48,002 bases of DNA from Prochlorococcus sp. MIT 0701 (GTDB taxonomy: Bacteria; Cyanobacteriota; Cyanobacteriia; PCC-6307; Cyanobiaceae), in NCBI RefSeq assembly GCF_000760295.1, contig NZ_JNBA01000028.1:1-48002 (forward strand), in the 5' to 3' direction. The position numbers and the translations under genes are program-made. The notes under the pieces are model-generated. The model saw only the letters and a list, made by a program, of their open reading frames with translations, was not told where the DNA came from and searched no databases. This document shows positions 15,009-40,170 of this stretch, piece by piece (within the stretch, counting starts at the first letter, position 1; every line of letters starts with the position of its first letter).

Positions 15009-16145
15009 TTATTCCACAATTAACTGAGGGGGATGCTCAACCCGAAACGGCAAATCAGAATTAACCGACTCAATCTCCTCAAGCATGAGAGGGTTCACCT
15101 TACGCAGCCAGCCACGGATCAAAGCATCCATACGAGGTTCATACCAACGATGCAAGCTGGCATGGGGCTTCGCCACAAAGCCCCTGCGGCGCTTGTGTTG
15201 ACCGCCTGCACCAGGATCAAAATTCTCTAAACCATGTTCCAACGCCCAGGCAATCGGCGCGTAATAACAAACCTCGAAATGAAGGCAATCGATCTCCTCC
15301 TTGCTACCCCAATAACGCCCCCACAACATTCGTCCATCCTGTATACAAAGAGACATCGCTACGGGCTCTCTAGGGCTCTCACGATGGGCACTAAACAACA
15401 CCACTTGATCTCTGATCGACGAATCTGCCAAGGCCTCAAAAAAAGTCTCCGAGAGATACTTGCTTCCCCAAGGCCCCCAACGGGCGCAATGCTGCTCATA
15501 AAAACCATGCATACGCTGTAAGAGGTGCACATCAAGTTCTGCGCCTGTCAATGCCGATACCGTGAGCCCCGCCTGCTTGACAGCCTTACGTTCACGCTTG
15601 ATATTGCGCCGCTGATTGGCATTGAAGCTGTTGAGATAGTCCGAGAAATCAGACTGCCCATCTGCTGACCAAAGGCTCTGCTGGTTCAACCAAGTGGCAC
15701 AGCCAGCAGCTTCCGCCAAAAGCCGCCAATGCGGATCAACATACAGAAAGTTACAGCTGAGAATTTGGTTGCGACGCGCAAAAACATCGATGGTCTCCAA
15801 CATCAAAACTGTCAACTCTGTCTCGTCCTCCCCTGGCGCCACATAGAAGCGATAGCCCTGCACAGGGCTCACAGGACTCATCCCCAGCAGTTTTGGGTAA
15901 TACCCCAAACCAAGCTCACCTGCCAGGCGAGCAAAGGCCTGATCAAAAACAAATTCGCCATAACTATGCCCCTTGAGATATAGAGGGGCTAGCGCGACTG
16001 GCGTATCGCCTCGCCACAGCGCTAAGTGGAGGGGCTGCCAACCATGTTTGGCGGAAATGCTGCTTGAGTCTTCAAGAGCGGCAAGCCACCGCCAGCGAAA
16101 GAAAGGAATCGCCTGCTCACCAACCAGGCTTTCCCAGTGATGCAA
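15009..16145 (-). CDS. FemAB/GNAT-like acyltransferase (COG3146, DUF482)
   Basis: Cytosolic member of the peptidogalycan biosynthesis/recognition family with a double GNAT-like fold. Typical stretches are YLKGHSYGEFVFDQAFARLA near residue 58, NFLYVDPHW near 142, FNANQRRNIKRERKAV near 175, HFEVCYYAPIAWALEHGLEN near 290 and FDPGAGGQHKRRRGF near 311. The role of the family is unproven. The frame begins at TTG (16145), but a coding-looking stretch (ARWHRSIHEIPL) continues upstream in frame to about 16200 without ATG, GTG or TTG. The true start may be a rare codon, or the native start may be lost. A broken copy of its N-terminal third lies at 16791-16999. Confidence 0.85.
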   Translation of the reverse strand: MHHWESLVGEQAIPFFRWRWLAALEDSSSISAKHGWQPLHLALWRGDTPVALAPLYLKGHSYGEFVFDQAFARLAGELGLGYYPKLLGMSPVSPVQGYRFYVAPGEDETELTVLMLETIDVFARRNQILSCNFLYVDPHWRLLAEAAGCATWLNQQSLWSADGQSDFSDYLNSFNANQRRNIKRERKAVKQAGLTVSALTGAELDVHLLQRMHGFYEQHCARWGPWGSKYLSETFFEALADSSIRDQVVLFSAHRESPREPVAMSLCIQDGRMLWGRYWGSKEEIDCLHFEVCYYAPIAWALEHGLENFDPGAGGQHKRRRGFVAKPHASLHRWYEPRMDALIRGWLRKVNPLMLEEIESVNSDLPFRVEHPPQLIVE

Positions 16146-16790: not shown

Positions 16791-16999
16791 GGCGGATCAA
16801 CATCTAGAACATTGCCGCTGAGAATCTGATTGCGACACAGAAAAGCGATAGCCCTGTACAGGGCTCACAGGACTCATGCCAAGAAGTTTTGGTTAATAAG
16901 CCCAAGCCAAGATCACCTGCCAAACGAGCAAAGGCCTGATCGAAAACAAACTCCCCATAGCTATGCCCCTTGAGATAAAGAGAGACCACCGCGAGCCTG
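16791..16999 (-). pseudogene. Decayed partial copy of the FemAB-like gene
   Basis: This segment matches two blocks of the FemAB-like gene at 15009-16145. 16792-16840 aligns with 15731-15779, and 16843-16999 aligns with 15847-16003, so about 67 bases are missing between the blocks. The translated match includes YLKGHSYGEFVFDQAFARLA, identical to the intact gene over those 20 residues. After LGLG the frame shifts because of base gains near the sequence matching PKLLGMS. No start or C-terminal part remains. It ends against the RibD-like gene. It is a relic of a partial duplication or of a second, deleted paralogue. Confidence 0.85.
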
Positions 17000-18707: not shown

Positions 18708-19298
18708 ATGACCAATAAAAATAGCGATACCCCATCCCCTCATCCTCTCAAGCAAAGGCTTGGTGGTCGCAACCTCTATTTGGTGGGAATGATGGCTAGT
18801 GGCAAGAGCAGCACAGGCAGGCCTCTAGCCGAACAACTCAGCTATGGGTTTGTGGATACTGATGCCGTGATCGAACAACTTGCTGGCCAACCAATCGCCA
18901 AGATCTTTAGCGAAGAAGGAGAAGAAGGATTTCGAGCAATGGAGTCTCAAGTACTCAATGCCATTGGCCAACGCCATTCACTTGTTGTTGCCACTGGCGG
19001 AGGGATGGTGAGCAAGCCAGAAAACTGGGGGGTGTTGCATCAGGGCATCGTAATCTGGCTAAACCCTGGCCGACAAGAACTGCTCAAGCGTTTGCATGCC
19101 GATAGCGGCAATAGACCATTACTACAAACAGAAGATCCAGAAGCAGCCTTCGACTGTTTATTTGCCGAACGCTTACCGCTCTATGCCGAAGCAGACCTGC
19201 ATGTGGAAGTGGGCGTAGAGGAACCAAACGGGATTGCGCTAAAGATTATTGAATTCCTGCCCCAGCTGCTATCGAACCCTATACAAATGAATGGTTAA
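18708..19298 (+). CDS. aroK: Shikimate kinase
   Basis: Phosphorylates shikimate at the 3-OH with ATP in the chorismate pathway. The 196-residue protein has the P-loop [10 protein letters not shown] near 28, the shikimate-binding [13 protein letters not shown] near 46, FRAMESQVL near 73, the ATGGGMV glycine-rich loop near 93 and the lid arginine in SGNRPLL near 137. Length is slightly above the usual 170-190 because of a polar N-terminus. It is divergent from the PTPS gene and is the last core gene before the AT-rich island. Confidence 0.95.
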
Positions 19299-19345
19299 AG
19301 CAACTATTTTGTCAATACTGTATGAATAGACCATTGAAATCCAGA

Positions 19346-19367
19346 GGACTGGCTCGATAGCCAGTTC
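19346..19367. other. 9-bp hairpin downstream of aroK
   Basis: GGACTGGCT (19346-19354) and AGCCAGTTC (19359-19367) form a 9-bp stem with one G-U pair around CGAT. No T-tract follows, so it is not a classical terminator. It marks the edge of the island and may help end aroK transcripts. Confidence 0.45.
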
Positions 19368-21512
19368 AAATCAAATCAGACGATCCATCCTAGACTTGAC
19401 GATTAAACGAAAACCTAAAGGACTTGAAGATAGTATATTTAAAGCTTCTCATGGGAATTTATTCTCTAACCACATCTAAATCATTGGACCAGGCAGATAA
19501 TGCGGTCATATCTAGTTGTTAGAATAAAAAGATGACCGTGATAAATGCGCAAAGAACTATAACTAGGAGCACACCCCTATCGAGGCTCTAGTCAACACAA
19601 TCAGGCAAAATAATGCAATCACATTAAAGCAGAATAGGCCCGAATAAAAGATTCAGGTATTGCAGCTAGAAAGAATCATCAAGAAGATAGACGACTATTT
19701 TCGAAGGCAAAGAAGAGATATCAATCTTTAGCTTGCTTATCCAGCTCAACTTATCCTCAGGCGTACCAGGTTAAAAATCAGCTTGTTGCCTCAAGCTAAA
19801 TACACAAGGCCCAATAAATGAAACCAAACCAGAGGCCGGCAACAATACAACCAGCAGAAGGAATAAGGCGAATAATCTGACAGGTTAAATGAACTACTGC
19901 TAGTGGTTATTTAAAGGTCATAGCTCATCAAGATATGATAGATAGCATATAGGCTTTTATCAATGATAAGAGGCGGCTAGAAAAAGTGCGATCTCAAATA
20001 GAGGCGGTTCTGCGGCAAATTGAGCGGACTGGGTTGAAACCTAAACGGTATTGCAGCAAAGCTTATCCACAACAGGAACAAACCAAGAAGAGCACCGGAA
20101 GCTTTATCCGATTTTCAAGAAAGTACATTCAGGCAAGGAATTAGCAACCTGGAAGAAATTGAATCGATATCCATGGCCATGCTGGAAGGACGGGACCCAC
20201 CAGCCCGCCTCTCGCGAAGGTAACGTATAGGTATATTTACCTAGCATTCGTCTGAATGGGCTGGGCCTCCAAGGAAGCAACGTGCAGCCAATCAAAGCAA
20301 AGCTAAGCAACGAACCAGAGAACTACGACCATGCCTTATCTTAATGCGCAAGTTTCTGGCAATATGTTTAACATATAACCTGATTGTTCAAGTAGTATCA
20401 TACTAGTTCATGACTTACTAGCTTAGTAAAATGATAAATATTAATTGGATGGTGAGCTTATGAAAAGTTTGAATGCTAGAGTTGTCAGCATATGAAGTAT
20501 TGATATTCAAATTGCAATATCGTCTAGAATTTATTCAGGCTCGACTCAGTCACCAAGGAATAAAAAAGGATAAAACCTCTTCAGGAATCATGTAGATCAG
20601 TATTAGAACAATTGCCAACCAATATTAACATTACTAGCAAATTGTCAACAACATCAGAGGGAAGACTAATCTCAACAAGAGGATTACGTATTATACTCTT
20701 AACTCATGGCAAGCATTTCTCTTATAGTTTTATTATAGATGGCCTAATTAAAGGATCTCAGCAACCTAACTCATATAGATATAAAATTCAAGCCTAAGAA
20801 TTACTATAAAGGCCTTGGTTTCTGCCATAAATAAACATGCTACTGCCTATACTTTTTTTAGTAAGAAGGCAAATATTGAATTATGAATAGGATTGATTGC
20901 GGGACATATGCATAATCTATATTTGACTACATGCATTCGCCTGAAGTCATCCCAAAAAGCCTAGTTTCTTGGGATGATAATGATCGGACACAAAATATTT
21001 GTACACAGACAGGGCAGGCAGCATACGGAGGATGTGAAATAGTCTAATAATCAGTAGCCATATTTTATTAAGGAGAATAGTACTGAACTGAACATCCTAA
21101 GAAAAGCAAGGGCTGCAACTGAAAAGTCTAAGCAGGAATAGCACTCGTTTTCGACAACTAACTTCAGGGTTAAGGGCTTACTAGGTAATTTGTAGCCACA
21201 GCTAAGCCTTGAATAGGGCTTTAAATAAATATTACAAGAACTTCCTTGATGTCAAAACGAATATATGTGGCGGTCTAAAGCCAATAGAAAAAAGAGTCGA
21301 ACTTTCCTAAGTTCAGTTTATTCCAAGATGGCAAACTATAGTGGCTGGTCAGTGAAAAGCGACGTTACAAAGATGGACTGGCAACCCTAAAGGATGGCTT
21401 TAATAAGCCAGATCAAGGAAAGCAAATATAGGCAGTCGCAGACGTCGCCTCCGGCAAATTAAACATGGCGGCACATGCAGGACGCTTCGGCGCAGTAGTT
21501 CATAAATACTCT
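19368..21512. other. Gene-poor AT-rich island segment
   Basis: Over 2 kb with no standard gene. GC is visibly lower than in flanking genes and all frames are broken. The longest meaningful-looking frame is 19953-20144 (plus), listed separately. Very short ATG frames at 21331-21393 (starting MANYSGWSVK) and 21394-21470 are too short to support. No tRNA, transposase or CRISPR structure was seen. Confidence 0.5.
19953..20144 (+). pseudogene. Start-less open frame, possible decayed gene
   Basis: A 63-codon frame opens after a TAG and has no ATG, GTG or TTG at its beginning. The translation is basic and helix-forming (KRRLEKVRSQIEAVLRQIER near the start, then SFIRFSRKYIQARN at the end), unlike random AT-rich sequence. 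I read it as a remnant of a small gene whose 5' end is lost. Family unknown. Confidence 0.3.
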
Positions 21513-21533
21513 ATTTGAACGAGTCGTTCAAAT
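21513..21533. promoter_or_regulatory. Perfect 21-bp dyad upstream of the unknown operon
   Basis: ATTTGAACGA and TCGTTCAAAT form a perfect 10-bp inverted repeat around one G. It ends 30 bases before the start codon of the 21564 gene and follows an AT-rich segment (TAAATACT) that could be a -10 region. This is the usual size and place for an operator bound by a dimeric regulator. The spacing does not match the Bacillus-type LexA box, so the binder is unknown. Confidence 0.6.
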
Positions 21534-21563
21534 GCGCTAGGGTCCGCAGACTGGAGTGCATCA

Positions 21564-22181
21564 ATGACTGATTCAGCGATCGACTTCAAAGTCATCTCGC
21601 CAGACAGGCACAGTTCCGGATCCGAGTCAATCGTCCTTCCCGAGGCCCTTACGGAAGGATTGAATGATGTTCAGGTAGGCATCATGAGAGATACGGTTCA
21701 TGCTGTCAATATCAATTCAAGGATTGCCGCAGAGCTAGTTCGAAGCACTGCGGCTGAGCTCCATCGCCTTAAATGCGTCCTAAAAAAGCAACAGGAATGG
21801 ACAAGATTTAGAGAGTCTGGCGTCATCCCAATGACTGCAGGCCAGATCAGAGACCTAACCTCGGCATGGGAGTCATGGCTAAAGAATACCGACGTGACCG
21901 ACCAAGAACTGGTTGGCACAAGCATGAGAACGCTGGCAGCAATTGGGAAAGCTGATCCTGGAACTCGAAAAGATGCAGTGGGTAAAATGAAGAGAGGTGA
22001 AAAGGTTACAGAGAAAGAGATCAGTGATAAGGCCATTGATGAGTTAGTTAAAGGCAACAAGGAGTGGAAAATAACCACATCAATGAAAAGGACGGACCTA
22101 ATGAAAGTATGTACAGCGCTACGAGATGAGAATGAAAAGCTAAAAACAAAGATCAAAGAAATGCAAACCGTTACAATTTAA
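21564..22181 (+). CDS. Unknown helical protein, first gene of island operon
   Basis: Not recognised. The 205-residue product is soluble and largely helical. The N-terminal 45 residues are polar. A helical region follows (NSRIAAELVRSTAAELHRLK), then a segment that might be a helix-turn-helix-like unit (MTAGQIRDLTSAWESWLK to ELVGTSMRTLAAIGKADPG) and a Lys/Glu-rich linker. The C-terminal helix (CTALRDENEKLKTKIKEMQ) looks like a short coiled coil. A good GGAG site lies 7 bases before the ATG, and the perfect dyad lies just upstream. GC is higher than in surrounding island DNA, which suggests selection. It could be a DNA-binding, phage- or plasmid-type protein, but this is not established. Confidence 0.75.
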   Translation: MTDSAIDFKVISPDRHSSGSESIVLPEALTEGLNDVQVGIMRDTVHAVNINSRIAAELVRSTAAELHRLKCVLKKQQEWTRFRESGVIPMTAGQIRDLTSAWESWLKNTDVTDQELVGTSMRTLAAIGKADPGTRKDAVGKMKRGEKVTEKEISDKAIDELVKGNKEWKITTSMKRTDLMKVCTALRDENEKLKTKIKEMQTVTI

Positions 22182-22188
22182 GGGAAAC

Positions 22189-22398
22189 ATGATGCCAAAT
22201 ACTCCTACGATTCAAGCTGCTCTGCACGAACTGAACAAACAGATGAACGATCATTGCCTAAAGGATATTATAGTCAATGGAAATATTGGACTATTGAGAG
22301 ATGGCAATCCAATGGAATATACAGAGAAGGAATGGAATGCAATCATGGACTATCTAAAGGAAAATATCAATATTGAGATTATCGCTAGGGTCAATTAG
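22189..22398 (+). CDS. Unknown small protein, second gene of island operon
   Basis: Not recognised. 69 residues (68 if the second ATG at 22192 is used), starting 7 bases after the previous stop with a clear GGG site, so the two genes are very likely co-transcribed. The product is soluble: a helix (IQAALHELNKQMNDHCL), then IIVNGNIGLLRDGNPMEYT and a second helix (EKEWNAIMDYLKENINIEII). The pairing of a mid-size helical protein with a small partner behind a dyad resembles toxin-antitoxin or regulator/partner modules, but no family match supports that. Confidence 0.6.
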   Translation: MMPNTPTIQAALHELNKQMNDHCLKDIIVNGNIGLLRDGNPMEYTEKEWNAIMDYLKENINIEIIARVN

Positions 22399-23262
22399 TT
22401 GGAAGCATATGCGATGATTTTAGATTGATTGATTCCTGGTGAGAGATTGGATTGATAGTGATAAGAAAGTATCCGTACTAACGAAACTACGATGGGTTTT
22501 CCAAAAATAAAAGAAATCAAGAAGGATTCTGGATACAAAGATGATGTATTATCTCCAAATACAACCAGATTTTTACTGTATTAAATTATACTAGCAAGCC
22601 AATATTAGTCAGATAATCATTATTGGGCAAATATGTTATTTACTTCTATTTATAATCTTAGCAACACGTTTCTCAAGTCTCTAATAGGTATTGAGCTGGC
22701 CAACAAGTCAAGAACTTTATAGCAAAATCTATAGAAATCTATTGTAATTACTGCAAAACTTAAAATTAATAGTGATTCGGCAAAGTTTACGAAGACTAGA
22801 CTGTCCTTATTGTTTTGGGCTATTAATTCAGAGAATATATTTGAATAAGTGAGTATTTCATAGCCATCAATAGCTATGATAGTCGATAGACAAGAGAGTA
22901 AGGTTTGATTGCCTTAGCTGTTTTTCGCATAATCCTTTCTAACTTAAAGTGAGTTATTGATAGTCTGAACAATAAGATGCTCAGTCTATAGTAGATTAAG
23001 TATATTTATGATCTTTTTTATTTCTATAAAATCAGGATAAGCATATAATATTGCCAAAGAAAAGCTTCGTTATAGAACAAGCAATAGAATATAGTTATCA
23101 AGAGTGGAAAAAGATATCAGATCAATAAAATTCACTCCTATTAGATCTTCATGCAATCCAAAAACCACCTGTCTTCATTATCGTGGAGTTGCTTATCATG
23201 CTATGCCAAATATTTATGACCCCTGATAAATAAGGCTATGATTGTTGTAAAGGCTAGACATT
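22399..23262. other. AT-rich island segment without a supported gene
   Basis: Frames are short and stop-rich. The only ATG frame I noted is 22492-22584 (30 codons, starting MGFPKIKEIKK), which lacks a ribosome site and family resemblance. Confidence 0.5.
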
Positions 23263-23391
23263 ATGCTACCACTGCCCATCTTTTTTGATCTCCCTCCTGT
23301 ATATCTTCAATATCTGTTAGCAGCTTCAGTTATAGCTTTAGGTACACTGGTTTCCAGTATATTATATGTGAAGACTAAAGATAGACTATGA
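23263..23391 (+). CDS. Putative 42-residue single-helix membrane protein
   Basis: Not recognised. The ATG is preceded by AAAGG nine bases upstream. The product starts MLPLPIFFDLPPVYLQ, contains one clear transmembrane helix (YLLAASVIALGTLVSSILYV) and ends in a basic tail (KTKDRL). This follows the architecture of small thylakoid subunits, but I cannot match it to PsbX, PsbY, PetN or PsaM. It overlaps a longer minus-strand frame that looks spurious. Expression evidence would be needed to accept it. Confidence 0.45.
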   Translation: MLPLPIFFDLPPVYLQYLLAASVIALGTLVSSILYVKTKDRL

Positions 23392-23880
23392 GGGTTAATC
23401 TGCAAAGAGATCCTGCTGTCGTAATTATTTAGCATTGTGAATTTAAAAAGATAAACATGTACAAATACGCACTTTAAGTTGGTCGAAAAGGCAATTAGCC
23501 TACATCCCTGAAGATATTTGTGCAAGTATCAAACATTTAGACAATCCCTTCATGTCTCTTAGTGGCATGGGAAAAATGATAGCCATAAGTCTGATGATTA
23601 ATCAATATTTAATCACCTCTGATTTTCACAAGACTAGAGAAGTATATATTCAACTTGTATAGAATACTGAGTAAAGCTTGAATTGCTATTAGTATGCATA
23701 TTATTCATCTTTTAACATCATGAAATCCCGGAACGCTCTTTTCGATTAAAACCTTGCCATCCGCATTAGATACTACTCAATCGATATGCTACATTTAAAA
23801 GTGGTGATCTACGAGCAGATCTCTATAGGAATAAATCAATCCCTTAATACTGATCAAAGCACATCTAACTAAAACAACTA
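23392..23880. other. AT-rich stretch without a supported gene
   Basis: Nothing recognisable on either strand; a minus-strand frame at 23307-23525 has no family features and conflicts with the small membrane ORF. Confidence 0.5.
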
Positions 23881-24207
23881 ATGGTCTTAACAAAGGATGG
23901 TACTCTGTCAAGTTGTCTGATCCCTACCAACTGCGTGCTTGTCGAATGGAAGTTTGATAATGTAAAGAAGTCATATGATAAGCTTATATACATTGCTGAA
24001 TCCTTACCAAGGATAAAAGTAGTAGAAAGGACAGAGAGTTATTGGCATGGTGTTGTGAGGAGCCTAATCTTTAGGTTCCCAGATGATCTTGAAATCCTAA
24101 AATTACAAGGCAAAGGAATCATTCAGGTTAGGTCTGCTTCGAGACTAGGTCTTGGAGATCTCGGTGTTAATAGAAACAGAATCAAAAACCTATATTCGCA
24201 ATTATAA
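23881..24207 (+). CDS. DUF1499 family protein
   Basis: DUF1499 proteins are small soluble proteins of unknown function, common in cyanobacteria and plastids. The 108-residue product shows the family core: a Pro-x-Asn-Cys-Val segment (IPTNCVLVEW near 17), YIAESLPRIKVVER near 38, a His-containing strand (YWHGVVRSLIFRFPDDLEI near 55) and the signature VRSASRLGLGDLGVNRNRI near 83. The N-terminus is shorter than usual and the second Cys-Val-Ser-Ser part is VLVE, so the protein may be slightly truncated. No good ribosome site is visible. It is the only clear family hit within the island besides the Nif11 peptide. Confidence 0.82.
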   Translation: MVLTKDGTLSSCLIPTNCVLVEWKFDNVKKSYDKLIYIAESLPRIKVVERTESYWHGVVRSLIFRFPDDLEILKLQGKGIIQVRSASRLGLGDLGVNRNRIKNLYSQL

Positions 24208-24431
24208 ATTGATAACGCCTTAAATTACACGTCAAATTGCTGCATATATATAATATGTCAGATTATAATAGCTATATACAATCATTACACACATCTGTTA
24301 GTCTTTCTACAGCAATTAGTACGTGATAATAACAGAATTTAACATCTACTGTTGATCATTAAGAAGCCATGTGTCTGCCAAGTAGGTCTTGGCACTTAGA
24401 TTTAAATGTTCACTATAAACTAGGTCTGATT

Positions 24432-24644
24432 TTACCAAATTCCTTCACCATTTCTTTTCTCCCACTCCTTCATAGATAATCCTGAACCAGAGCGTTGTGC
24501 ATCTTTCAGTGATTTCCATCTTTCTTGGCATTCAGACAAAGTCCATTCTCTTGTAGCATCATTTCGATCTTCTTTTGACAACTCCTTTATCATTTCATCT
24601 GACGAGTGGTCAATGTCTGAGTTGGGTTCTTCTGGCTTAGGCAT
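24432..24644 (-). CDS. Small charged protein, unknown
   Basis: Not recognised. 70 residues, highly charged and soluble, with an acidic N-terminal half (EPNSDIDHSSDEMIKELSKED) and a second half starting TREWTLSECQERWKSLKDAQ. The Trp/Glu/Arg pattern looks like a real helical protein rather than AT-rich noise. Ribosome site weak. No neighbour suggests a job. Confidence 0.5.
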   Translation of the reverse strand: MPKPEEPNSDIDHSSDEMIKELSKEDRNDATREWTLSECQERWKSLKDAQRSGSGLSMKEWEKRNGEGIW

Positions 24645-25048
24645 AGGTCTACTTAATCTGTTTATAATCTAATAAGGCTATAAACACTCAGGTGAAGACA
24701 TATATTCTATCATCTGGCCTTCATAAATGGTAAAGATCACTAATTTACAATTACATCGCTTATGGACCATTTGTCTATTCTACCTTCGCAAACTACACTT
24801 CCATATTTCAGGCATAACTATTATCGGTAGCTAGAGTAGTATAAGTATAATCGTTAAAACAATTGCATAATGCATATATTGCCTAAATTACTCTTCAGTC
24901 TGCCTGTTAGGCAGCATAACTCTTAGGCTATTCAAAATTATAGCCTAAGATTATTTCAGATGCGTATAATTAGATAATAGGTGAATTGAAGATTGAGTCG
25001 AAAGTCAATGCATTTTGAATAATCCTAAGAGTATTGATCTTTTTTATT
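24645..25048. other. AT-rich stretch without a supported gene
   Basis: No frame above about 30 codons with a plausible start; no RNA gene or repeat recognised. It would hold the promoter of the 24432-24644 gene and the 3' region of the Nif11 gene. Confidence 0.5.
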
Positions 25049-25231
25049 TCAGTTTGACAGTGAATCCCTCACCCACTCAGTATATGCTATTCGCAGATCG
25101 TCAGTTGTAATCGTAAAGCCAGCATCCTTAGCAATACCTACAAGGTCAGCCTTTTCTTCTTTAACTTTATCTTGTAGAGTTTTTTCTTGCTTGACTTTGG
25201 CCACAAATGCTTTCAGTTGCTCATAGGACAT
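25049..25231 (-). CDS. Nif11-type leader peptide without a core
   Basis: 60-residue protein matching the Nif11 leader family: MSYEQLKAFVAKVKQEKTLQ at the start, then VGIAKDAGFTITTDDLR near 31-47. In LLIV Prochlorococcus this leader precedes the lanthipeptide cores of prochlorosins and is cut by LanM/LanT enzymes after a Gly-Gly. Here the Gly-Gly site and any Cys/Ser/Thr-rich core are absent; the protein ends EWVRDSLSN. It is therefore an orphan Nif11 protein, a truncated precursor, or a leader-like regulator. No LanM or transporter gene lies in the window. Confidence 0.85.
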   Translation of the reverse strand: MSYEQLKAFVAKVKQEKTLQDKVKEEKADLVGIAKDAGFTITTDDLRIAYTEWVRDSLSN

Positions 25232-25794
25232 TGAATCTGTGCAATTATCAGTAAACTAGCAACCCTGTAAGTATAAAGATACATTCTTAATTAATCAAGA
25301 TTATCAGTGAGTATGTGTTCAAAAAACGAGATTTGGCGAGTACATTCTTGCCCTATAGGGTTAGTATCTTTGTTCCAGTCGAAAGGCTGTTCATGCTATT
25401 GCCTTGTTCTTTTTTCTTAATCCTTCAACCTCACATCCGGGGCTACAGCTTGTTGTTTTGAAGAAAATGCTGGATGATCAGAACTTCAGTGTTAGATCGA
25501 TCCTGATCAGTTTTCTTAAAATAAACTCGTCAAAACTCCACCAGCAATACTCATTCAATCATTAAATACTATTTACTCGCTATCCTATTCTCTTGATTGC
25601 GAGATCTAAAGACCTGCTTATTGTGGAGTTAGCTTATGTATAGTTTATCTAATGATAATCTAGCAAGCCTACCAATAAAGTTCCAAGGAATAACAGAAAT
25701 CATTCAAATCCTTTTAGCCTACGTAGATTGTTCTATTGAATGGCATGCAACCCTTGACTGAGGCATAGAATAGATAAGAACAAGCATACCTACT
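25232..25794. other. AT-rich stretch without a supported gene
   Basis: All frames are short. A 22-codon ATG frame near 25394 was considered and dropped. No repeats or RNA genes recognised. Confidence 0.5.
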
Positions 25795-25905
25795 ATGTTC
25801 TCAGATTTTTTTAGTCAGACGAATCTGATCACGATGGCTTGCAATGCACTTCTAACCCTAATTATAGGATTTATGATCATCACAGGTCAACAAAAAGCGC
25901 ATTGA
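25795..25905 (+). CDS. Possible 36-residue membrane peptide
   Basis: Speculative. Starts MFSDFFSQTNLI, has one hydrophobic helix (ACNALLTLIIGFMIITG) and ends QQKAH. No clear ribosome site. Reported because single-helix peptides recur in this island. Confidence 0.25.
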   Translation: MFSDFFSQTNLITMACNALLTLIIGFMIITGQQKAH

Positions 25906-26258
25906 CTATTAAAAATAAAATTAAAATCAGGTTAATGAGCAAATTATTCAACCTGTCTAATCAAATATATGCTTAAATGGCTAGATTTTCTAATTGCTAA
26001 CTAGAAACAGGCATAATATCACTCACAAGTGTAATGAAGACAAGTTTCATTAAGACTTGCTGAAAAATAGAGTTGGATATTTGAACTGAGATGCAGTTTT
26101 ACAAACAGCACGTCTCCCTTCCGAATAGCAAGCCTGCTCAAGATTTCGAATAATCAAACTAAAAAGCTCAACTTTTGAGCATGCTTTTAGCATTAGTCAC
26201 AATTAGCGTTTCATATAACACCATGACTATCCAAATTAGCAAGATTCACATTCTGGTC
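25906..26258. other. Stretch without a supported gene, holding a terminator-like hairpin
   Basis: No gene seen. The minus-strand hairpin at 26161-26180 is listed separately and lies downstream of the small lipoprotein ORF. Confidence 0.5.
26161..26180 (-). terminator. Terminator-like hairpin on minus strand
   Basis: Read on the minus strand, GCTCAA and TTGAGC form a 6-bp stem with a 3-base loop followed by five T. It sits about 80 bases after the stop of the small lipoprotein ORF. Confidence 0.55.
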
Positions 26259-26402
26259 CTAAAAACCAAACCCTAAGTTAGTTGTAGCAGGAGAATTTGT
26301 AGACGCAAGCGGTGCCTGTACTGATTCCGGAAAACATAAAACTGTTTGCGAACCTGCCAAGCAACCAATCAAGAAGATGCCGAAAACCTGTAAAAGCTTC
26401 AT
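26259..26402 (-). CDS. Putative small lipoprotein or secreted peptide
   Basis: Not recognised. 47 residues starting MKLLQVFGIFLIGC: Lys, a hydrophobic segment and an acceptable lipobox (LIGC, Cys14). The remaining tail is short and Ser/Thr/Ala-rich (SVQAPLASTNSPATT). If the lipobox is not used, a signal peptide ending near SVQA is the alternative. No strong ribosome site, but a terminator-like hairpin follows on the same strand. A 62-codon frame overlapping on the same strand has no such features and is likely a shadow. Confidence 0.45.
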   Translation of the reverse strand: MKLLQVFGIFLIGCLAGSQTVLCFPESVQAPLASTNSPATTNLGFGF

Positions 26403-27459
26403 AGCTTAAGGATTGAGCTTCCCAATAATAAACACTATCCAGTCTATTGCCAATATCATCGTGCAAAAATGTCTAAATCCAATTATTTCCAAGATTAGAT
26501 AATCCAATCTATGCCTTGATATTGCACTGAAATACATATACATCTTTACATTGATCATGATTGAGCTTAACATCTCATATTTCTGATCATGTCAGCTTTT
26601 AGCGCTGCGACATCTCTTATAAGTGGTAACTTTGTAGCAATTAAGAATAATTAGGACTAATTAGTTGCCAATTCTAACGAAGCTCATGCTCTTTGAGTAA
26701 ACTATTAAATGCCTGTATGCCTTCAGTAGATGTCCTAGAACACTGATGAGTGATTGATTTGAAAAAAGCATAATCTAAGCAACCAATTCGCTAGCCCATA
26801 CAACAGCCCTAGCATAACTACTAGGTATAAATGCTTACCGATAGGGCCATCTTTCTGCCATGCCCTAAGTATCGGCACCCCTCTTCTAGGGTTTTGAATA
26901 AGTCCTTTCATGGCTGAGGCTACAGCGATAAAAGAAACTTACTGGGAGGCAGGATGTCATGAGTAGCCAATTAAGCATCGTCAAATTAAAGAATAAAGCC
27001 TGGCGCGGACGCATAGCACTTCGCCAACATTGAAAATGGTCATAACAATTAGTGAATGACTTAGTAGCTGAAAGACAAGTCTGCAACTGATTCCTGGTGC
27101 GGAAATCAATACGCCAGATGTGTTGAACAAATAATTCTCAATGGCAGTAAATTTTCTGGACTATAGTTTTTTCAAGAAGCAAATCTAAATACCCAATTAT
27201 GAAAAATGTATAGCGCAAAGTGAGAAGATAGCAGGTCTTAAAGAAGATCGCTATTGGCCTTTTCAAAGGTTGCCAACAGGAATGGCTCTAAGGCATCAAT
27301 GGCTTAACATCTATTTATGCTTGGCGATAAAAGCAAAACATTATAAGAGCGAATATTCTAGAATTTTAATGGGTTTTTCATTGCATCATGGCCAGATACA
27401 TTATCTATGCAAATATCACATAAGAGTCAAGCAAGTGATGATTTGATTGTTTCACCCTT
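26403..27459. other. Island end without a supported gene
   Basis: About 1 kb downstream of thiC on its strand. Frames are broken. A 24-codon plus frame starting at 26958 (MSSQLSIVKLKNK) has a strong GGAGG upstream but is too short to support alone. No convincing thiC terminator was found. Confidence 0.45.
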
Positions 27460-28890
<1,431 letters not shown>

Positions 28891-38038: not shown

Positions 38039-39220
38039 ATGCTGAACCTGCTCTTGACAGTGCGACAGCGAAGTGAATCGCTGGTTGCACCCCTCGAACC
38101 GGAAGATCTCTGCCTTCAGGGCATGCCCGATGCAAGTCCGCCGAAATGGCACCTTGCTCACACCACCTGGTTCTTCGACACCTTTTTGCTTCAGCCCTAT
38201 CTCAAAGGCTACGAAGGCTGTGATCCACGCTGGAATTATCAATTCAACTCCTATTACGAAGCGGCCGGGGCACGCCATCCAAGACCCTCAAGGGGTGTCC
38301 TGACCCGACCGACAATCAGGGAGGTCTTGGCCTGGCGGCAACGGGTGGACGCTGCATTAACGCAACTCCTGACCTCCCCGGACGCTGACCAAGAAGACAT
38401 CCAGCAACTGGCAGAACTGGGTCTACATCACGAACAGCAGCATCAGGAATTGCTGTTGATGGATCTCTTGGATGGCTTCAGCCGACAACCGGTAGAGCCT
38501 GCTTATCAAACTGGCGCCGATCATCATCTGGGACCTTTAGAGCCAACCAAAGCCCGCTGGATCTCCTGCGATGGAGGCCTCTATGAAATCGGCCATGCTG
38601 GCGCGGGATTCCATTTCGACAACGAGGGGCCGTCGCATCGCATCTGGCTGGAGGCCTTTGCCCTGATGGATCACTTGGTGTGCAACGACGACTTCAGGTG
38701 CTTTATCGCAGATGGGGGATATCAACGCCCAGAACTTTGGATGAGTGAGGGCTGGGCCGTACAACAACAACTGGGATGGCAGGCTCCCCGGTACTGGCGC
38801 GGCGACGGACCTGCAGATCAATGGCAGGAAGAATTCACCCTGGGAGGAAGGCGGCGCCTGAATCCACAAGCACCGGTGCGCCATTTGAGCTGGTTCGAGG
38901 CCGATGCCTACGCACGGTGGTGTGGTGCTCGATTACCCAGCGAAGCGGAATGGGAAGTGGCCCTACAACAGCATCAACCTCTCATCCACGATGCTCACGG
39001 CAAGCTGTGGCAATGGACGGCAAGTCCTTATAGGCCCTATCCGGGATTCCTTCCCGCCCCAGGCGCTGTGGGTGAATACAACGGAAAATTCATGAGCTCC
39101 CAGTTTGTTCTTCGCGGTAGCAGCTGGCTCACGCCGGAAGGCCATGGGCGCGACACCTACCGGAACTTCTTTGCACCAGCAAACCGTTGGATGGCTGCAG
39201 GACTGCGCCTGGCACGATGA
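38039..39220 (+). CDS. egtB: Ergothioneine biosynthesis protein EgtB
   Basis: Non-heme iron sulfoxide synthase that joins hercynine to a thiol donor (gamma-glutamylcysteine or cysteine) with O2. The N-terminal DinB-like domain carries the iron histidines: H41 in WHLAHTTWFFDTF, and H131 and H135 in GLHHEQQHQELL. The C-terminal half is an FGE-sulfatase fold (YEIGHAGAGFHFDNEGPSH, HLSWFEADAYARWCGARLPSE, LRGSSWLT). Length 393 is slightly short for the family. It overlaps egtD by ATGA. No egtC or egtE is nearby, so the C-S lyase step must be elsewhere. Confidence 0.93.
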   Translation: MLNLLLTVRQRSESLVAPLEPEDLCLQGMPDASPPKWHLAHTTWFFDTFLLQPYLKGYEGCDPRWNYQFNSYYEAAGARHPRPSRGVLTRPTIREVLAWRQRVDAALTQLLTSPDADQEDIQQLAELGLHHEQQHQELLLMDLLDGFSRQPVEPAYQTGADHHLGPLEPTKARWISCDGGLYEIGHAGAGFHFDNEGPSHRIWLEAFALMDHLVCNDDFRCFIADGGYQRPELWMSEGWAVQQQLGWQAPRYWRGDGPADQWQEEFTLGGRRRLNPQAPVRHLSWFEADAYARWCGARLPSEAEWEVALQQHQPLIHDAHGKLWQWTASPYRPYPGFLPAPGAVGEYNGKFMSSQFVLRGSSWLTPEGHGRDTYRNFFAPANRWMAAGLRLAR

Positions 39221-40170
39221 GCATCGAGCTGATTGACCTACATCCCGCCCCTGCGGATCTGAAGCAGCTGGTGCAGTCAGGCTTCAAATGCCAGCCGCGG
39301 CAACTGCCGGCTTGGGTGTTGTACGACGCGAAAGGATCACGCCTATTTGCCCAGATCTGCGAACAACCTGAATACGGCCTAACCAGGACAGAGATCAAGC
39401 TGCTGGAAGAGAATGCACCAGCCATTGCCAAAGCCGTAGGAGATGGCGTCATCGTGGAATTCGGCATCGGCAATGCCCGCAAGGTTTCCCCCCTACTAAC
39501 AGCAATCCGGCCGTCAACCTTTGTGGCCCTGGACATCAGCCAAGCAGCTCTAAGGGATTCGCTAACCAGACTCGCCAACACCTATCCCATGTTGTCAATA
39601 CTAGGCATCTGCTGCGACCACAGCAGCATGCAGGCGCTACCGCCCCACCCCCGGCTCGAGGGTGTGCGCTGCATCGGCTTTTTTCCCGGCAGCTCCCTAG
39701 GCAACTTCACACCAAAAGAAGCAGTGACAGTGCTTCGTCGGTTCCGAAAGCTACTAGGAGGTGGTCCCCTGCTGCTCGGTCTCGACCAACCCCGTGATCC
39801 AACCCAGCTCGAGGCTGCCTACAATGATGCGGCAGGCATCTCAGCAGCTTTCGCGCGCAACCTGTTGCATCGTCTCAATCGTGAGCTTGAAGCAGATTTC
39901 AGACCGGACCACTTCTCTTATCGAGCCCGTTGGCAAGAGGAGTTTCATCGCATCGAAATGGCTCTAGTGAGCCGCTGCAGTCAAACAATAGTGATTGACA
40001 ACAGCACCTGGTCGTTCAGCGCCGGAGAACCATTAATCACCGAATACAGCGTCAAATACAACCCACAAGATGCAGCCAGACTGGCTGAAAAGGCGGGCTG
40101 GAGAATCAACCAAAGATGGCACGACTCTGCCGATTCACTCTCGCTGCATCTGCTGGAACCGTCAGACTGA
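39217..40170 (+). CDS. egtD: Histidine N-alpha-methyltransferase EgtD
   Basis: SAM-dependent enzyme that trimethylates histidine to hercynine, the first step of ergothioneine synthesis. Family marks: YDAKGSRLFAQICEQPEYGL near 34, IVEFGIGNARKVSPL near 79, CIGFFPGSSLGNF near 147 and the substrate-site stretch NDAAGISAAFARNLL near 202. Length 317 is normal. The frame extends 30 bases further upstream, but the ATG at 39217 overlaps the egtB stop (ATGA), so egtB and egtD are coupled. Confidence 0.95.
   Translation: MSIELIDLHPAPADLKQLVQSGFKCQPRQLPAWVLYDAKGSRLFAQICEQPEYGLTRTEIKLLEENAPAIAKAVGDGVIVEFGIGNARKVSPLLTAIRPSTFVALDISQAALRDSLTRLANTYPMLSILGICCDHSSMQALPPHPRLEGVRCIGFFPGSSLGNFTPKEAVTVLRRFRKLLGGGPLLLGLDQPRDPTQLEAAYNDAAGISAAFARNLLHRLNRELEADFRPDHFSYRARWQEEFHRIEMALVSRCSQTIVIDNSTWSFSAGEPLITEYSVKYNPQDAARLAEKAGWRINQRWHDSADSLSLHLLEPSD

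Follow-up and report, generated by a model that had tools for sequence, protein, structure and literature searches.

In the genome of Prochlorococcus sp. MIT 0701, a perfect 21-bp dyad precedes a unit of two genes, and sites of the same type recur in front of divergent relatives of the first of them (gene 1). The reading that we favor, at a probability of roughly 0.6, is that the product of gene 1 is an autoregulator that binds DNA and belongs to integrative elements, and that it occurs here in a fixed, integrase-free unit. The gene 1 protein would bind the dyad as a dimer and, once bound, would control its own promoter and gene 2 along with it. Its family would form part of marine picocyanobacterial integrative elements, which encode a tyrosine integrase and in some cases a single-subunit RNA polymerase. 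Many members also have a LexA-like box next to the dyad, through which the SOS response would lift the control. The unit described here would be a stable chromosomal survivor, with neither integrase nor tRNA, held by purifying selection. Conservation, family membership, integrase association, motif specificity, and enrichment of LexA-like boxes were all computed in this work.

The unit and its control region

The window, by which we mean the whole stretch of 48,002 nucleotides that was analyzed, belongs to a source genome of 2.59 Mb in 53 contigs. The original prediction had placed a perfect 21-bp dyad 30 bases before an ATG equipped with GGAG, followed by a 205-residue gene and, 7 bases later, a 69-residue gene, and each of these elements was confirmed (Table 1).

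Table 1. Coordinates of the features of the unit in the window, and dyad-type sites located upstream of other family genes
Feature	Position or locus	Strand	Basis or remark
Perfect dyad of 21 bp, putative gene 1 operator	21513-21533	.	Sequence read; motif kept upstream of divergent family members
Candidate promoter overlapping the dyad, TTGAAC - 17 bp - TAGGGT	21515-21543	+	Sequence read
GGAG ribosome-binding site	21553-21556	+	Sequence read; kept in G001 and AG-412-I05
LexA-box-like palindrome AGTTCATAAATACT	21497-21510	+	10 of 13 informative positions of AGTACWNWTGTACT; begins 18 bp before the dyad core
Gene 1, 205 aa, unnamed family	21564-22181	+	DUF3102-like helical core, residues ~31-160; predicted C-terminal coiled-coil-like helix, ~176-204
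Gene 2, 69 aa, no recognized family	22189-22398	+	Separated from gene 1 by 7 bp; high conservation in LLIV-type relatives
DUF1499 ORF	23881-24207		Order next to the unit kept in G001 and AG-412-I05
Stand-alone Nif11 domain ORF	25049-25231		Order next to the unit kept in G001 and AG-412-I05
Site upstream of family gene, TTGGACGACTCGTCCAA	L020
Site upstream of family gene, ATTGGACGATTCGTCCAAT	L061
Site upstream of family gene, TTGGACGATTCGTCCAT	L062
Site upstream of family gene, TTGGACGAATCGTCCAA	L065
Site upstream of family gene, TTGGACGAATTGTCCAA	L066
Site upstream of family gene, TTGGACGAACCGTCCAT	L050
Site upstream of family gene, TTGGTCGCCTCGTCCAA	L048
Site upstream of family gene, TTGGACGGTCCGTCCAG	L063
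Site upstream of family gene, TTGGACATCTCGTCCAT	L005/L053		Copy next to obg in the genome of the window
Six-base-centre forms of the site	L016-L018

The dyad reads ATTTGAACGA-G-TCGTTCAAAT, in full ATTTGAACGAGTCGTTCAAAT, and its core, TTGAAC-GAGTC-GTTCAA, occupies positions 21515-21531. Under a dinucleotide model, 0.15 perfect inverted repeats with arms of at least 10 nt and a spacer of 0-1 nt are expected per window, and the only one found is the dyad itself. When up to 3 mismatches were allowed, the 2.59-Mb genome contained a single copy, and reversed-pattern controls gave none. Matches with 3 mismatches to the exact 21-bp sequence in other genera were rejected as apparent chance, reversed-pattern controls being about equally frequent.

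Two genomes served for close comparison, namely G001, from the same genus, and AG-412-I05, a Prochlorococcus single-cell genome. Across these and the window, the arms of the dyad are identical and its centre base alternates between G and C, while the sequence around it, upstream of gene 1, is only about 50% identical; the block from AGTAGTTCA through GCTAGGGT is almost invariant. The candidate promoter that overlaps the dyad has a weak -10 match in the window (3 of 6 positions). Relatives carry TTGTTC-N17-TATATT and TTGGAC-N17-TATATT at equal spacing, and the enrichment of the -10 element across all sites is modest.

The gene order of the unit, the DUF1499 gene, and the Nif11 gene is retained in all three genomes, in which the sequence upstream and downstream of the unit drops to 30-55% identity. 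By contrast with these flanks, gene 1 is 91-93% identical, with a dN/dS of 0.09-0.12, and gene 2 is 96-97% identical, with a dN/dS of 0.04-0.08 (both NG86); the two genes are under strong purifying selection. The surrounding region is bounded by a shikimate kinase-like gene, which ends at 19298, and thiC, which starts near 27460 (both named from their translations). About four fifths of the 8 kb between them (19299-27459) are non-coding, with little conservation; a gap of this kind is unusual in a Prochlorococcus genome. Elsewhere in the window, a 378-aa ORF (15009-16145) is partially duplicated, as an upstream 61-aa ORF (16804-16989) repeats part of its N-terminal half, and two adjoining ORFs at 38039-40170 resemble EgtB and EgtD of ergothioneine synthesis, as read from their translations.

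A symmetric site in front of family genes

A search for the dyad near homologues, which the original prediction had proposed, found it conserved in the close relatives and, as a motif, upstream of paralogues with 24-41% identity, with the consensus TTGGAC-GANTC-GTCCAA. A score of at least 11 out of 12 was reached by 12 of 23 non-redundant members (<80% identity), compared with 0.5% of random segments, a conservative background because these segments include the family sites. Overall, about half to two thirds of the non-redundant members carry a clear site, and about a third (L006, L007, L057, L060, and others) have none. Among 18 genomes, all six sites with 0-1 mismatches lie just upstream of family genes or overlap their starts (G046, G146, G155, G168, G265, and G277); at 2 mismatches, chance matches appear in these genomes, as they do in the reversed control. 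In L005, L016, L017, L051, and L065, the mechanically assigned ORF start is overlapped by the site and probably lies too far upstream.

In the window, the two arms of the site carry corresponding changes relative to the consensus. In 13 odd-spaced sites, agreement between a site's own arms over positions 1-8 amounted to 90, against a mean of 79 in shuffled pairings, and none of 5000 shuffles reached the observed value. Read from sequence, arms that change together form the pattern expected of a symmetric site. Such a site lies at the promoter of its own gene and is conserved across the family, as in an autoregulated regulator; a family-specific symmetric site with co-changing arms at a promoter is the trace that an autoregulator would be expected to leave. 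The coiled-coil-like C-terminus of gene 1 would suit a dimer, and repression seems likelier than activation because, in several relatives, the -35 box and the spacer would share sequence with the site. The dyad could also be read by a factor other than the gene 1 protein.

Matching changes in both arms would likewise be expected if the dyad acted at the RNA level, as a hairpin in the gene 1 5' leader, and perfect inverted repeats with 18-33-bp arms occupy the dyad's place before the family gene in L016, L049 (near 6836), and L060. Nevertheless, the part that would form the loop, the GANTC centre, is palindromic and conserved, as for symmetric recognition of DNA by a protein, and in some relatives a good -35/-10 pair overlaps the site, which would place it outside the transcript. 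We regard the hairpin as highly improbable.

The two proteins and their relatives

Neither protein had been assigned to a family in the original prediction, and this assessment held. Gene 1 remained below the cut-off of every curated Pfam, NCBIfam, and PADLOC model, and gene 2 reached no curated Pfam or PADLOC model, a family-library scan giving weak matches only. Among 25 diverse family members, none reached a curated Pfam or NCBIfam model, and the best single match to DUF3102 had an E-value of 0.017 (in one of the 25); both the NCBIfam scan and the 25-member Pfam scan covered gene 1 and its relatives. PHROGs yielded only weak matches (best E-values 0.0015-0.0018), Pfam recognized no DNA-binding domain in gene 1, and a sequence search of the PDB returned coiled-coil matches only. 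No relative was found in scans of viral contigs with four family proteins, and phage and plasmid records gave either no relative or one chance match. The AlphaFold model of gene 1 is poor (mean pLDDT 50.8, from an input of two sequences, those of the window and AG-412-I05), and its comparison with the PDB by Foldseek and VIA-align gave no meaningful match.

A remote kinship was nonetheless detected for gene 1, which falls short of membership in DUF3102 (PF11300) by the Pfam gathering cut-off. Alignment of the gene-1 family with DUF3102 by hhalign, the latter represented by an alignment of twelve DUF3102 proteins from other cyanobacteria, gave a probability of 95-96% (E 1.6e-8 to 1.3e-9, ~133 columns), compared with at most 3.7% in 60 column-shuffled controls and 0.08% in the reversed control. 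With the window's close subgroup alone, the probability was 18.6%; thus, the link depends on the whole family. The profile comparison indicates that the gene-1 family is remotely homologous to DUF3102, with a common ancestry of the core domain. In addition, a conserved protein of ~350 aa in other cyanobacteria (L084:1201-2241; L082-L093) gives a weak match to the family profile over the DUF3102-like core (E ~1e-5 per genome).

One DUF3102 protein that was scanned also matched UPF0137, below the cut-off. UPF0137 includes a chlamydial plasmid protein, and this match would fit a partition or maintenance protein whose centromere-like site is the dyad, as would the position of the dyads next to the gene. 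Against such a role, each unit has a single site, before one gene, no ParA-like partner was seen among the neighboring ORFs that were read, and the unit in the window is chromosomal and fixed; we consider it very unlikely.

Gene 2 has a narrow distribution. It was found in 4 of 400 genomes, all of one genus, and G003, a genome that is 78% complete, carries a 56%-identical gene 2 at a different location, with gene 1 not found. Downstream neighbors vary among the other family members. Since gene 2 is confined to four genomes of one genus and once occurs without gene 1, its distribution identifies it as a lineage-specific follower of gene 1 rather than a family-wide partner. From the spacing, the two genes are probably co-expressed. 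Its AlphaFold model suggests a small alpha/beta fold and is itself poor (pLDDT 64.9).

These results bear on the original prediction of a self-regulated two-gene unit, of which the operator-like dyad in front of homologues was retained and the obligate pairing was not: the two genes occur together in the window, G001, and AG-412-I05, while G003 breaks the pattern. A toxin-antitoxin pair with an autoregulatory operator would suit the layout, in which an operator-like dyad precedes two small genes separated by 7 bp, and such a pair had been proposed, as had a regulator/partner pair. Neither a toxin-antitoxin pair nor an obligate regulator/partner pair was supported, as gene 2 was found in one genus only, the neighbors of other members differ, and the conserved gene pair of a type II toxin-antitoxin module was not found. 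The solitary gene 2 of G003 excludes it as a free-standing potent toxin that needs gene 1, and neither protein resembles PADLOC or Pfam models. Of the alternatives weighed here, the toxin-antitoxin pair receives the least credence.

Integrative elements, LexA-like boxes, and known systems

Profile searches detected the gene-1 family in 41 of 400 Cyanobiaceae genomes, representing 8 of 59 genera. Some genomes, including that of the window, contain several copies, and a resident copy lies near glyQ in most genomes of genus g56, presumably low-light Prochlorococcus. A tyrosine integrase of 470-530 aa adjoins the family gene in L043, L046, L055, L057, L063, L064, L069, and L070. In 25 genomes, 11 near-complete integrases of this characteristic type (~500 aa) were counted, and 8 of them have a family gene at most 6 kb away on their own contig; this tally includes one integrase broken into two parts and two partial family genes at contig edges. 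Four integrase-associated loci (L043, L046, L058, and L063) also encode a T7/N4-like single-subunit RNA polymerase, which matches PHROG 414 with E-values of 1e-137 (L043) and 1e-109 (L046) and is spread over two frames in L063. A conserved membrane-like protein of 108-118 aa (SSIPNWVVYALL...) follows the family gene at L043:8873-9211, L045:939-1265, and L063:6387-6743.

Other copies occur singly, such as those near tRNA-Ala in L050, L065, and L066. At L048:8079-10473, perfect 78-bp copies of tRNA-Arg(tct) flank a 2.3-kb interval that contains one family gene together with a membrane-like ORF of 80 aa, and this interval is possibly a minimal element without an integrase. The window has no tRNA, no tyrosine integrase, and no trace of an RNA polymerase, so any element function there would be past or domesticated. 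The original guess at an element-related role also fits, through the family members located beside tyrosine integrases rather than through the window itself.

Another alternative is that the dyad serves the elements' tyrosine integrase in recombination or attachment and is not an operator. In L046 and L063, a dyad-type site separates the integrase from the family gene, and in L043 two family genes, both preceded by a site, flank an integrase-bearing stretch. Attachment is nevertheless quite improbable in our estimation, given that the L048 mini-element is bracketed by the tRNA-Arg copies and not by the dyad, that exact and one-mismatch sites are single within a genome and not paired, that the 5-6-bp centre is palindromic, unlike usual overlap regions, and that adjoining LexA-like boxes point to promoters.

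The cyanobacterial LexA-box consensus is AGTACWNWTGTACT, and its Nostoc form is RGTACNNNDGTWCB (PMC3091678). Boxes matching at least 10 of 13 positions and located 14-22 bp before the dyad were found at 8 of 16 family sites, that of the window among them, compared with 0.6% of random stretches; the solo copies near tRNA-Ala have none. In the window, both arms of the box depart from the consensus, which makes SOS control there uncertain, and the versions in G001 and AG-412-I05 differ by one base.

The most likely class of system is already known. Control genes of mobile elements of the SXT/R391 SetR and phage CI type are autoregulated and released by the SOS response. The present family resembles them in that its small regulator gene can lie close to an integrase, that a symmetric site marks the gene's own promoter, and that LexA-like boxes point to a possible link with LexA/RecA. 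In contrast to them, it falls in no recognized repressor family, Pfam recognizes no CI-like HTH or peptidase domain in gene 1, and the putative SOS link would run through a LexA box rather than self-cleavage. We know of no function for DUF3102, with which gene 1 shares a homologous helical core (residues ~31-160) and from which its family differs in being shorter, in its coiled-coil end, and in having no member above the Pfam cut-off. The regulation of SetR/CI-type control genes is reviewed in PMC4542580. Tycheposons are described in PMC10872708 and PMC10803314 (original work by Hackl et al. 2023) as Prochlorococcus tyrosine-recombinase elements that integrate at tRNA genes. The integrase-bearing relatives are likewise tyrosine-recombinase elements of the same organisms, with tRNA-gene integration seen for L048, whereas the window lacks both recombinase and tRNA. 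Compared by integrase and tRNA site, these relatives may be tycheposons.

A bolder version of our preferred reading, that of an autoregulator of integrative elements, is also conceivable, and we consider it unlikely as a whole. It proposes that undescribed DUF3102-like repressors acting on TTGGAC-GANTC-GTCCAA silence integrase/RNA-polymerase elements until DNA damage lifts LexA, and that the solo copies are domesticated and provide immunity against incoming elements. The family, its operator, and the link to integrase elements are apparently undescribed in the open literature searched, which was covered in part.

The find is more informative than it first appeared because the dyad marks a whole family. 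If the proposed autoregulation is true, a role open to testing and a specific DNA target could be assigned to a gene family that has no name and occurs in abundant ocean cyanobacteria, and the combined signature of dyad, LexA-like box, and integrase would locate the control region of integrative elements. The mobility of such elements in Prochlorococcus would then be tied to DNA damage, and DUF3102 would gain its first functional lead.
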